From Polymyxa betae (lineage: Eukaryota > Endomyxa > Phytomyxea > Plasmodiophorida > Plasmodiophoridae), in contig RBZT01000278.1 in assembly GCA_003693705.1 (NCBI GenBank), positions 62,001 to 126,000 on the forward strand: DNA of 64,000 bases, in the 5' to 3' direction. How positions within the stretch are numbered: position 1 is the first letter of the stretch; each line of letters opens with the position of its first letter. The notes below the pieces were generated by a model. The model was not told the origin of the DNA. It did not search any database and saw nothing but the letters and a program-made list of their open reading frames with translations. The translations under genes were made by a program, and so were the position numbers. This document shows positions 5,505 through 62,643 of this stretch, in pieces.

Positions 5505-5864
5505 GTAATAAAGTCATATTACACTGTTCTAGAATCGTGCAATTGTGAGAAAACCCACATGCATCAACGTTTTGGGTTTGTACGTGCACAATTGAATAAA
5601 TAAGCCTGCTCAGCGTTCATTCCTGAAGTATGGGAGGCTACAAACCGATGAGCCGATGCTTTGCAGAGCACTTCAGCTAGTTTTGCACAATGACGATTGA
5701 TTCACAACATGTAGCATCTATATGAAGCAACATCATTTCTCTCAATGAGCCATTAGGGGAGATTTCGGTTATGGAGAGTAACATCAAGAGTAACATTGCG
5801 ATATGCAGTGTAAGTTTGTATTGATTTACAGATAGGCCACGTCATTAATGGGGACAGTCAGTCC
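5505..5864. other. intergenic gap, nothing recognised
   Basis: AT-leaning sequence between two plus-strand genes. It presumably holds the 3' end of the upstream transcript and the promoter of the JmjC gene; I see no distinct element. Confidence 0.4.
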
Positions 5865-7591
5865 ATGTCTCTTACATTCATTCTTAACAGCTTCATCATT
5901 CTTGCTATAGCAGCAGCAGATTCGGAAATTAAGCCTTACCGACCTGTATCAAATGCCCCCTTTTCTTACGCCCCGGTAGAACAGTCGGTTTCGAATCAAG
6001 TCCGAGCCATAATTGGCAATCCTGAGTACTTTTATAACAACGTGTTCCAATCTGTTGTTGATGTTCAGGTATTCTGCTGCCTATCTGGTTGCAGAGATTG
6101 AGACAGTTATTAGAGATTTGATGATTCTTGGTGCGATCATATCTTACCGCTTCCAGCAATTGAGACTCTTCTCAATATAGCAACGTCCCTGACGAATGAT
6201 AACGGTCACATTGCCAGTCAATTATGCAGTGAAAACGGTTCTTCAGTAGCTGAGTATAAGCCATCCGATTTACCAATGTTAAACGGAGAAGATTTTAAGC
6301 TTTGCAAACGAGTTCTGCTTCCATCTGGAGAATACTGGTCAGGCATGTCTTCCATGAAAGACGCTTCATTTCAAGCTATAAACAAGGCATTTAATGAAAA
6401 AGGTCCTGCGATGTCTTTTATGATCGACTATCTAACACTAAATAGGATTGACGTTGATAATAAACGGGATGGAACGGCGATGGCATCCAATCGCCGATCT
6501 TGTTTTCGTTATTACTAAATACATCCTGGCTTATCCTGTAGCCGTAAACCTATATTTCACCCCAGCTATGAGCCAAGGGTTTGAAGCTCATGCAGGTAAC
6601 TTCTGTCTAACTATTCGTATTACTATAATTTGCTTATTCAATTGGAATCAGATTGGATGGATGGTACTATAACCCGGTCTCCACGGTTTCTAAAACTAAT
6701 TCCATCATAGTATTCATCGTTCAGCTGAGTGGCAAAAAACAGTGGAAGTTGTACCCTGGAGCATGGAATCTTTCGAATCCGTTCTCTGAAATGATAAGGA
6801 AACCGTCCTCCGCAATGCTAAATGCTACGAAACCGTTCGAGATAGACCTTTCAGTTGGCAACGTGCTTTACATCCCAGCCGGCTGCATTCATGAAGCCTC
6901 GACAGTTCCTACAAAAACTCTGTCATTGCACCTCACTTTTGGTATTGAAATCGTCAGTTGTGCCGATGCCACTACCAAATTTGTTTTGAATCAAAAATCT
7001 GTTTCAGGAACCCATTGACACTTGGACTGGGCTTCTCATTCAAGCAATTTGGGAAGACGACTCTGGGTTGATTCTGCTCCCACAAGTTGCTTCCGCTGCC
7101 ATTTACCACGCTGCAACTAAACCTGAAAACTTTTTGTTTCGTAAAGCTATTCCGTTTGGAGATTGGAAAAGAGGTGTGGTTGGAATAATTATTGAAGAGG
7201 TTAATTTGTCTCGGAACCATTGATCTTTCTCCCAGGGAATTCATCTCATATGCTTGATTATTTCAAGTATTTATCAAGTTATGCAGAAGCTGTGACCGAG
7301 CTAGAGTCTCTGCAGCAATTTCATGCAAGCACAGTCCATTTTCAACTGCAAGCATGTGTCATGCCATGGCCAGAACAACTAAATGACACCCAACTTCTAT
7401 CAGACGCCTTACTATCTGCCTGGTCCTATTTGTCTGCAATGAACCAACTACAATTCGACAGATTACTCTTACACTATACAGAGAAGCATTCATTACGTCT
7501 CAAAGCCCGAAATGTTCGAATGAAACGGGATCTTGACACAGTAGAATCCCGGCTGAAAGCATATTTATCAACATTAAAAGATGAACTTTAA
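5865..7591 (+). CDS. Predicted ER-lumenal JmjC/cupin-4 2-oxoglutarate oxygenase with KDEL tail
   Basis: The protein begins with a hydrophobic signal peptide (about residues 1-19, ending AAADS) and ends exactly in KDEL before TAA at 7589-7591, the classic ER-retention signal. Between them, exons joined by GT-AG introns (for example a 43-nt intron after ATGAAAAAG near 6403) give a JmjC/cupin-4 core: VAVNLYFTPAMSQGFEAHADWMDVFIVQLSGKKQWKLY, written here as pieces. The iron-binding HxD is H-A-D in FEAHADWMD, and the distal His is in YIPAGCIHEAST, so the facial triad looks intact. SLHLTFG follows. The core is most like the ribosomal oxygenase group (MINA53/NO66), which are nuclear enzymes that hydroxylate His. 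The substrate here is unknown, but the signals place it in the secretory pathway. Domain confidence is high, localisation is strong by motif, and substrate is unknown. Confidence 0.85.
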
Positions 7592-9400: not shown

Positions 9401-9564
9401 AGTAATAAAATACAAAATTCAAGGACGTGAGAAGGGTGACATTCACATGTCCTTAGACTGAGTGTTATCTGTCAGATATTCATTTAATGATCATCACGGC
9501 TGTGTGACAAATGGGTTCCATTCTTCTATTCATTTAGCATTCATCAGAAATCCCTCCCGTAATC

Positions 9565-10773
9565 ATGAACACCACCTCGACGAATTTGACATCCGAGCAT
9601 GATGCTCTGTCAGCTGTTGACATCTCCGACTTAAGTGATGCAGAGTTAGCTTCGACAATATCACATTCACCAATCATGTTTCCTGGCGACCTGTTTAATC
9701 TCTTTGAAACAGATCCTGTCCCAACGTTCAGGTTGCCGCCAACGTTCTTGCGGCAGCACTCAATGAGTTTCGAGCTTCCGACGTCACGACGCTGTTCAGT
9801 CGAATTGAATTGCGATTCTGTTCGGTTTGAATCGTTATTGTCTCCAAATGAATTTCAGCTGCCATTACAGCTAAATGCTGATTCGACACGTCGCCAATCG
9901 CTGGCGACTGAACCATCCCGAAGAGATTCGAACGACTCTCTAATTTCGTTTTGCAACGAAGCCTTCGCTGGCAATAGGGCTCAACCTGATCTCTTCGAGT
10001 TCGAGCTGCTGATGTCACCTCGAAAAGACAATCGGAAACCGAAGTCAATTGTATTGCAATCTCAAGGCGACCTTCAAGCTCGAACCAAGGCGCTGGATGC
10101 GACCTCACAACAGAATCGGTCAGTATTGCCATCATCATCTACAAATTTAGATATTGACAATGGAGTTTGTTTGTATCGTTCGAATACATCTTTAGATATC
10201 AGATCGTCGTCTGCATCTAAGCAGTCCTCATTGGCCTCGAAATCATCCAAAAAACGTTCTCGTGAACCAGAAGCTACGGCAACGGTAGAAAATGCTTTTG
10301 CAAATTCAGAATGGACTGAAGAAGACTTATGTTCGGATACTGTTATAACCTGCAATATCAACAAAGAGCATTTATCTGCTCAGAAATCAGTTCATTGCAC
10401 TAATGAAGTTGTATGTTCGGGTACTGCGATGACCAGCAATATCAATACGAAGCATGTATCAGCGGCGATTCCATCCCGGAAACGCTGTCGTGAACCAGAA
10501 GCTACGGCGACGGTAGAGAATGCTTTTACAAATTCAGAATGGACTGAAGAAGTTTTATGTTCGGATACTGTTATAACGTGCAATATCAACAAAGAACGTG
10601 TATCTGCTCAGAAATCAATTCATTGGACTAATGAAGTGTTATGTTCGGGTACTGTTATACCCTGCAGTACCAGCACAAAGCATGAACCAGCCGCAATTCC
10701 ATCCCGGAAACGCTCTCTGGACCAAAATCTACAGCATCTGTGTCGAATGTTTTCACAAATCAGATTGGGCTGA
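9565..10773 (+). CDS. Low-complexity protein with 228-nt tandem repeats
   Basis: Single long exon, about 400 codons, Ser/Asn/Thr-rich, no recognised domain. The C-terminal third is built from a repeat with a period of exactly 228 nt (76 codons): copies begin at 10252, 10480 and 10708 with K/R-K-R-S/C-R-EPEATATVENAF. Inside each unit a half-length sub-repeat is visible (CSDTVITCNINKE versus CSGTAMTSNINTK). The third copy lacks one nucleotide near its start and the frame then runs to a stop at 10773, so this C-terminus is probably not ancestral. RS-like KKRSR runs could act as nuclear signals, but function is unknown. Confidence 0.6.
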   Translation: MNTTSTNLTSEHDALSAVDISDLSDAELASTISHSPIMFPGDLFNLFETDPVPTFRLPPTFLRQHSMSFELPTSRRCSVELNCDSVRFESLLSPNEFQLPLQLNADSTRRQSLATEPSRRDSNDSLISFCNEAFAGNRAQPDLFEFELLMSPRKDNRKPKSIVLQSQGDLQARTKALDATSQQNRSVLPSSSTNLDIDNGVCLYRSNTSLDIRSSSASKQSSLASKSSKKRSREPEATATVENAFANSEWTEEDLCSDTVITCNINKEHLSAQKSVHCTNEVVCSGTAMTSNINTKHVSAAIPSRKRCREPEATATVENAFTNSEWTEEVLCSDTVITCNINKERVSAQKSIHWTNEVLCSGTVIPCSTSTKHEPAAIPSRKRSLDQNLQHLCRMFSQIRLG

Positions 10774-60400: not shown

Positions 60401-62643
60401 TGGAGCTGTTTCGCCGGCACCACGTCTTCTATTAGTGATGAAACTTGGACATCATCATCATTTGACACATCCTAAAAACTGGTAAGCGTAAATGGGTAGT
60501 AAACAGAAGTGGAAAAGCTAACATGCTGATGCTCTAAAACAGGCTCAAGGCTGCGTTTCATGGCACTGAAATCCTGCCGGAAAGGCGCCTGAAACATCGC
60601 AGCGTTTTGGATACTGAATGACGCTATATTGACGGTTTCAGCAACGGTCTAAAGAGCTAAACGATATTAAGTACCTGGGTCTACTGTGCGACGCCGGCGA
60701 ATAGCAGATCGTTTCAAATCTTGTTTGCTCACAGAATTTGCTGTAATGGAAGTTTGCTAAAAACTACTTAGAAGTATGTGTGAAATCAAAAAGTCAACGT
60801 ACCTCGACGTTCACGTCCAGATTATTGGCATGAATGAACAGTTTGCGAAGACGCTCGAATTGAAATTGAGCCTCTTCCAGCTGACGGGTTTTGTCTTCAC
60901 ATTGCAGTCTCAAATCATATGACTCATCGGATCGACGAAGCCGAGACTTCAAGCTTGCAATTTCTTTCTGTAGGCGATGGATTTGGGTCTGTTCATCGAC
61001 AATCTGGAACCGAGATTTTAGGATAATCACTAGCAATTCAAGATACAAATGTACCTCGTTTTTCTTGACCATGTTCTGGATAGTCTTAGCTCGAGATGCA
61101 AACTGAATCGTCGATATGGTTTCATCAATGTGAACAGACGCGGGCGTGACGGCACAAACAATGACAGTAAAGGAATTCCCTCCAAGAGCGGAAGCCAGAA
61201 TCCTTTCAATATTATCAACCTGATGACAATGAACGTGCTATACTACCTTGTTAGTTTCGAATCTCGAAAAGGAATGTGCCGGCTGGAATTTCCTTCACTT
61301 AACAGTCGGATACATTTTCCCAACGTCAGCAGAGACTTATTGATGTGCCCTTAATTGCAGTCATCATCAGAAAACGGGAGCAATCAAAAGGAATGAAAAC
61401 AAAGAGAGACTTAGAGAATGTGAAAACCTGATGAAAATACACTGCCTAAGATTATAGAAGAATTGAACGTACCTCCTTCCTTCAGTCGCAAACCGGTCGC
61501 GCCTGTAGTTGAGACCCGTTCACTTCCTGCTAAATCGACCAAATTCAGAGAAGCAATCTGCACGCCTCCATCGACCTGGAATAAACGGTTTTCAGAAGCA
61601 ACGAGAGATCAAGTGGATCAGTAACCTGATCCAGAGACTGTCCTTCGCGTTGTCGTTCGCGACTTTCAATAGCTAATCTGAAGATTGAGTGTGATCTCGA
61701 ACTTTCTTCGTTCATATTTGTAGCAGCGGTTTGACGGCTTGCTTCAATCAACATCAACAAAAAACATTTCGGGCTAAACAACAGCTACCTTGGCCCTTTA
61801 GAAGAAGGCCCATAACCTCAGCAGGAGATCTGAAACAGTAGTCTTTCAAATTTGATGGCTTGAATGATGAATTCTTACCTGACATTAACTTCTGTGAGCC
61901 GGCCTACTATGATATTGCCATCGGCGTTCTCTTGAATCTTTAGGTTTGTGTTATCAGGGTTCAGTAAATCCCGAATGACTTCGTTGCTGCATAAACCATT
62001 GGTCAATGGCTCTCAGATGCCGTAATGAACCCTACTATATCTCAAGATGGGAGACTCGTAGCAGAAATTCCCGATCTTCATGCTACCTTGCAGCTTAGCA
62101 TCATTCATAGCAAACCCTATGATTGCCCAACCTCTTGAATAAATTGGAAAATATCTGATAAAGCGAACGGAATGATTCCTGGCGATTCGCGCGTCCCCAT
62201 CATGGTATGGGTCTTTCCAGACGATGTCTGTCCATAGGCAAAAATAGTCCCATTAATACCTGAAGCAAGAATATGAAATATGTCGTCTTGTTCTAGTCAG
62301 TAAGCTACCTTGCATCGAGGCATTTACTACTGAAGCTGCAATAGTCTGATAAACAGATTCTGTCGTTTGAGTTTCGTCGAAAACATGGTCGAAAGCATAT
62401 TGATGCTGAGAGTTCACTTCGTCTGTTCTAATTCCAGAGTAATTGTCGATAATTTAGAAACAATCTGGCAGCCTACCGTTCTATTATCTTGCCATCAGTG
62501 ACACGCCAGGCCTGGCGTGCTCCCATGAGCCGTTCGCGTTCGTTCAAAGGACGAGCTCTGATGGCGACTCGAACCGATTCATGACGAACATCAACATCGT
62601 TGACGAACAAATTGGCAGATGTCGGAGTCTGTCCATCAGACAT
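57478..62643 (-). CDS. Kinesin-7-like (CENP-E type) motor with long coiled-coil tail
   Basis: Start at 62643. The motor begins near residue 20 ([17 protein letters not shown]), with Walker [15 protein letters not shown], switch [22 protein letters not shown], switch [43 protein letters not shown] and [21 protein letters not shown], and the neck [17 protein letters not shown]. The [10 protein letters not shown] start and FQFIQE neighbourhood match CENP-E/kinesin-7 best. The tail is about 900 residues of coiled coil in more than ten exons, ending YDKENHL at 57478-57480. Kinesin-7 motors act at kinetochores or in spindle alignment. Several tail exon edges are approximate. Confidence 0.88.

Follow-up and report, generated by a model that had tools for sequence, protein, structure and literature searches.

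Does the forward-strand gene at positions 5865-7591 of the window (the whole 64,000-nucleotide stretch of Polymyxa betae DNA analysed here) encode a JmjC oxygenase that resides in the ER lumen? The initial annotation had proposed this from a hydrophobic leader, a JmjC core with an HxD...H iron triad and a C-terminal KDEL, and had named MINA53 and NO66 as the closest relatives. Judging from the spliced sequence and its homologues, we consider it quite probable that the gene product is an active, soluble ER-lumenal Fe(II)/2OG oxygenase with a JmjC_2 (RIOX-like) core.

The gene was assembled by hand as a seven-exon model that translates into 472 aa with no internal stop. All six introns are GT-AG and 43-62 nt long. 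The features of the model are as follows:

5865..7591, + strand: complete coding region from start codon to stop, seven exons, 472 aa (hand-built spliced translation)
5865..6068, + strand: exon 1, aa 1-68, which holds the leader (spliced model)
5865..5918, + strand: signal-peptide-like leader of about 18 aa, A-x-A before DSE (hydropathy; simple rule)
6114..6402, + strand: exon 2, aa 69-164 (spliced model; P0001 alignment from aa 126)
6446..6595, + strand: exon 3, ending with His213 (6589-6591) and base 1 of the Asp215 codon
6652..6663, + strand: 12-nt microexon that completes the codon of the iron-ligand Asp215 (6595, 6652-6653; MINA and P0001 spacing)
6711..6952, + strand: exon 5, JmjC_2 core with Lys228 (6737-6739) and His279 (6890-6892) (PF08007 at residues 190-299)
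7008..7173, + strand: exon 6, aa 300-354 (exon start aligned in P0002, to aa 317)
7236..7591, + strand: exon 7, C-terminal region with no recognised domain (no meaningful Pfam or PDB match)
7577..7588, + strand: KDEL, the last four codons before TAA at 7589-7591 (spliced model)
6069-6113, 6403-6445, 6596-6651, 6664-6710, 6953-7007 and 7174-7235, + strand: introns of 45, 43, 56, 47, 55 and 62 nt

In a raw six-frame reading, the leader sits in an open frame at 5814-6101, KDEL in another at 7205-7591, and the core is spread across several frames. The claim that leader, core and KDEL share one frame thus holds after splicing of the six GT-AG introns and fails in the unspliced sequence. Two alternative joins were rejected: a last intron with its donor at 7200 (36 nt) throws the final exon out of frame, so the donor at 7174 is preferred, and a single long intron at 6596-6710, which does away with the microexon, costs the core its Asp and four residues. 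Introns of like size (54, 48 and 48 nt) occur in another gene of the window, which we take to be a proteasome-type AAA ATPase and whose exon joins we likewise assume; an Hsp70 gene on contig C217, with candidate GT-AG pieces of 28-50 nt, was left out of this comparison of intron sizes.

Among 7862 candidates scored in a protein search, two passed, P0001 (E 1.7e-14) and P0002 (E 1.5e-13), and a two-sequence profile search, with scoring confined to the 7994 candidates that had the most words in common, yielded these two again. Candidates were gathered through common five-letter words, a procedure that says nothing on the rarity of relatives and by which the MSLTF common to P0001 and the 472-aa protein may be a selection effect. 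P0001 (364 aa, 35% identity to the 472-aa protein) has a JmjC_2 core with HYD...H, begins with the signal-like leader MSLTFMQSVLFLTALVCVPRAA and ends in DDEL. The two proteins are therefore alike in the order of leader, JmjC_2 core and xDEL end, P0001 being the shorter after the core, and the positions that they have in common include N199, Y201, H213, D215, K228, H279 and H292. That so diverged a protein appears to keep both ends is, in our reading of the sequences, the strongest point from outside the window. A single-sequence structure model of P0001 was unusable (pLDDT 33). P0002, a JmjC_2 protein of 766 aa from the plant Tripterygium wilfordii, resembles the 472-aa protein in the core and the adjoining stretch (hhalign columns 162-317), but differs in its basic start and in having neither a leader nor an xDEL end. 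Pattern matches numbered 178 in contigs of prokaryote genomes and 56 in viral contigs, none of which was confirmed as a relative.

These homologues bear on whether the model describes one protein at all, for exons of two genes, or of a decayed gene, could have been fused such that leader, core and KDEL do not belong together. The model is hand-built, the local alignments to homologues leave out exons 1 and 7 and most of exon 6, and an earlier candidate join for the last intron broke the frame. Set against this are the single frame that stays open over seven exons with only short GT-AG introns, the alignment to P0001 over exons 2 to 5, the alignment to P0002 across the exon 5/6 join, and P0001 itself, which has leader, core and xDEL in the same order within a single protein. 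A fusion of this kind seems to us very unlikely, and we treat the 472 residues as one protein.

RIOX2/MINA53 and RIOX1/NO66 are ribosomal histidyl hydroxylases, and the first question about the core is how close it comes to theirs. A profile search confirmed that it is of JmjC type: residues 190-299 match Pfam JmjC_2 (PF08007) with 75.7 bits (cut-off 22; E 3e-21), and the protein also matches Cupin_8 (30.1 bits). The best PDB sequence matches were MINA (7.9e-13) and NO66 (1.2e-9), the relatives that had been proposed, followed by YxbC and 1vrb near 6e-4 and by bacterial uL16 arginine hydroxylases at 0.01-0.03. With a two-sequence profile of the 472-aa protein and P0001, the values for MINA and NO66 were 5.8e-16 and 8.8e-16. 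The iron triad is intact in the spliced model as His213, Asp215 and His279, as the initial annotation had it, with Asp215 depending on the microexon; Lys228 is presumably the ligand of the 2OG site, a role we assume from RIOX. The likeness to MINA53 and NO66 thus takes in the JmjC_2 core, the HxD...H triad and the equally spaced Lys of the 2OG site.

RIOX proteins are described as having JmjC, dimerisation and winged-helix domains, and NO66 and MINA as nucleolar (PMC6006756, PMC6182338), whereas the 472-aa protein has a leader and KDEL, and Pfam detected no winged helix in either the whole protein or its last 168 aa, although profiles can miss this fold. A RIOX1_C_WH profile found no match in the genome, where control searches were equally silent. 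About one third of the protein, C-terminal to the core, is without a known domain by Pfam and PDB sequences: it gave one Pfam match below the cut-off (TssR_C, E 0.029) and two PDB matches at chance level, and none that would correspond to the dimerisation helices. An NCBIfam search returned nothing for the 472-aa protein or P0001. Because the winged helix was not detected and the predicted location differs, we read the protein as a RIOX-like 2OG oxygenase and do not call it RIOX.

The predicted location follows from the two ends. The leader at 5865-5918, MSLTFILNSFIILAIAAA, is present as annotated: its first 18 residues are hydrophobic, it ends in AAA before DSE and it contains no basic residue. 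It passes our simple signal-peptide rule (not SignalP), as do the leaders of P0001 and of a second JmjC gene described below (L004). Since 10 of the 143 ATG frames of at least 60 aa in the window look equally signal-peptide-like by this rule, the leader by itself is weaker evidence. KDEL, likewise present as annotated, stands directly before the stop. The window contains another KDEL-stop, at 62547-62561 (+), which is probably due to chance, as the frame that it ends is only 10 codons long. The initial annotation had held that two targeting signals make coincidence unlikely. Chance is an unlikely source of the core, given its PF08007 score, and of the microexon (see the shuffles below); either signal on its own says less, given the base rate of the leader and the 17 KDEL sites of the 24.4-Mb assembly.

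Whether KDEL carries meaning in this organism can be read from the frames that it ends. Over the 24.4-Mb assembly, [K/N/H/Q]DEL-stop gave 65 raw matches compared with 63 for the reversed pattern, and so shows no numerical excess. From the raw [K/N/H/Q]DEL-stop matches we discarded those coding for Phe or reading TGG and inspected all the rest, which comprised 17 KDEL, 13 HDEL, 8 NDEL and 3 QDEL sites in the whole assembly. By a 100-aa line chosen post hoc, after inspection of the list, the last open frame was at least 100 aa long for 6 of the 17 KDEL sites (the 5865-7591 gene included), 3 of the 13 HDEL sites and none of the 11 NDEL or QDEL sites (longest 61); the other 11 KDEL sites terminate frames of at most 68 aa. 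What distinguishes KDEL is how long the frames ending in it are and what they encode, not how many there are. The five other long KDEL frames are thioredoxin-type or lie beside calreticulin or Hsp70 matches: a PDI that combines two thioredoxin stretches with an ERp29 domain (L009), a frame with a thioredoxin match over the cut-off (L023) and another with one below it (L070), a frame 3' of calreticulin matches on contig C92 (L010), and one that follows Hsp70 matches on C167 at a distance of about 1.8 kb on the downstream side (L014). Since neither of the last two frames itself matches Pfam, they are identified by their neighbours only. The long HDEL frames are a BiP-like Hsp70 (L058), a 518-aa frame of repeated amphipathic LEA/apolipoprotein-like sequence below curated cut-offs (L065, G000:C411:18500-22500) and a frame without a Pfam match (L061). 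The KDEL-receptor family PF00810 is represented in the genome by six matches (best E 1.8e-36), which fall in three places on contig C524. Taken together, these observations suggest that KDEL functions as an ER signal in this organism. The three PF00810 places, at about 6.3-6.9, 26.3-26.9 and 31.5-32.1 kb, perhaps form a local gene cluster.

An ER-lumenal location is accordingly supported by leader and KDEL, by the leader and DDEL of P0001, by the ER-type proteins that end in KDEL or HDEL, and by the receptor-family genes. It has to be weighed against a nucleolar or cytosolic RIOX that acts on ribosomal proteins, with the leader absent from the real transcript and KDEL coincidental. The nearest solved structures, MINA and NO66, speak for such an enzyme, and an exon-by-exon search of the draft assembly found no second NO66/MINA-like gene, so the 5865-7591 gene could be the sole one. 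The same search ground was covered with the 472-aa protein as query, which found no paralogue in its own genome at E 0.1, and with P0002, which matched the 5865-7591 gene only. A nucleolar enzyme leaves the joint presence of leader and KDEL to coincidence, both here and, with DDEL, in the diverged P0001; the other long KDEL frames of the genome are ER-type, and the winged helix was not detected. We regard a nucleolar or cytosolic RIOX as improbable, to about the same degree as a fused model, and retain the ER-lumenal oxygenase.

Whether that protein would be active turns on the microexon. In the spliced model HxD reads HAD; exon 3 supplies His213, and the Asp215 codon straddles the junction of that exon with the microexon. 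The last bases of exon 3 are CATGCAG, the microexon is ATTGGATGGATG and exon 5 begins with TATTC; joined, they give HADWMDVFIVQL, with the spacing of MINA HYDDVEVFILQL in the alignment. Inclusion of the microexon thus restores the HxDxxxVFI spacing of MINA and that of HYDHM in P0001, while skipping keeps the frame and turns HAD into HAV (HAVFIVQL). When the 115-nt span was dinucleotide-shuffled 20,000 times, any AG-12-GT piece arose in 7.3% of the shuffled sequences and one giving Asp as well in 1.3%. That the microexon serves as an enzyme switch is conjecture, its sole basis being the frame-keeping skip.

The same 12 nt give some room to an ER protein that lacks oxygenase activity, be it a chaperone-like or regulatory pseudoenzyme or a product made mostly in the microexon-skipped HAV form: the catalytic Asp hangs on one tiny exon whose skipping is frame-neutral, and the sequence that follows the core, roughly a third of the protein, matches no known domain. 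A dead enzyme, however, would need neither the three iron ligands nor Lys228, all of which P0001 and the best-supported splice form preserve, and we hold this possibility to be slimmer than the two considered before it. Slightest of all is the chance that the protein is secreted, or retained elsewhere along the secretory pathway, for which the leader alone would mean export, but which is at odds with the KDEL end, with KDEL and HDEL on ER-type proteins of this genome and with the receptor-family genes.

On the preferred reading of an active ER-lumenal oxygenase, the leader would carry the chain into the ER, KDEL receptors would retrieve the protein from the Golgi, and Fe(II), 2OG and O2 would be used in the lumen for side-chain hydroxylation of proteins in transit through the secretory pathway. 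An entry signal together with an ER return tail implies that the protein probably modifies proteins inside that pathway. By analogy with RIOX and YcfD, His or Arg would be the likelier target of hydroxylation.

What is known of RIOX-like JmjC enzymes is that they modify ribosomes in the nucleus; P3H1, P4HA and PLOD are collagen Fe/2OG hydroxylases of the ER lumen, P3H1 ending in KDEL. The ER collagen hydroxylases, P3H1 among them (PMC11607015), thus offer the same compartment and class of chemistry but belong to other 2OG oxygenase families, not JmjC. Closer in kind is JMJD8, a JmjC-only protein with an N-terminal signal peptide that experiments place in the ER lumen, reportedly as the first of the JmjC proteins there (PMC5684140), so that an ER JmjC protein is already known in kind. 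JMJD8 differs in that PMC5684140 does not contain the word KDEL and in being absent from our matches; we liken the two by description, not by sequence. A search of mostly open-access literature found no earlier case of a JmjC or jumonji protein with KDEL or ER retention, and the main text of a plasmodiophorid secretome paper (PMC12503489) mentions none of KDEL, JmjC, cupin, oxygenase and 'ER retention'. If our reading is true, the union of a RIOX-like core with a complete set of ER signals would mean that this enzyme type was rerouted into the secretory pathway in a further eukaryotic branch. More speculatively, and on balance doubtfully, protists might have a separate ER-lumenal RIOX-like lineage, comprising the 472-aa protein with its KDEL and P0001 with its DDEL, that brings ribosomal-type hydroxylation to secreted or cell-surface proteins, with the microexon as an on/off switch of the enzyme in this organism.

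Other JmjC genes of the genome were noted in passing. PF08007 matches four places, the 5865-7591 gene (best) and one each on C457, C267 and C61, the nearest solved structures for the place on C457 being YxbC-type. JmjC-type matches overall (PF08007, PF13621, PF02373) fall on nine contigs: C253, C457, C267, C61, C166, C375, C31, C483 and C516. A leader and an ER-like end were looked for in the JmjC genes of C253 and C61. The latter (L004, G000:C61:10829-14065; locus positions 571-1929) has the leader MFVVLIWLLAAEAIA, TPR repeats and a Cupin_8/JmjC core, and reaches a KSEL end after one intron, for which six splice joins are in frame with identical ends and a 45-nt join is preferred. Its leader and KSEL end suggest that JmjC chemistry in the lumen may extend beyond one gene in this genome. 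On C267 (L003, G000:C267:73861-77109), an ankyrin-repeat frame lies beside a JmjC-type frame, perhaps as one ankyrin-JmjC gene.

As to the surroundings of the gene, the sphingosine-1-phosphate lyase of the window is best matched by that of Spongospora subterranea (72%; next matches 63% and 56%), a phytomyxid of the class Phytomyxea, Rhizaria (PMC10953367). GC in the window is 40-52%, mostly 41-45%, which together with the 24.4-Mb assembly lies closer to Polymyxa betae and Spongospora than to Plasmodiophora brassicae; published genome values are 45.1% for Polymyxa betae (27.1 Mb) and 58.5% for Plasmodiophora brassicae (PMC6328671), and 45.7% for Spongospora (31.5 Mb; PMC12883290). Downstream of the JmjC gene, at 9538-10773 (+), the window also holds an unassigned 411-aa open frame with a 76-residue internal repeat, in which REPEATATVENAF occurs twice, 76 residues apart.
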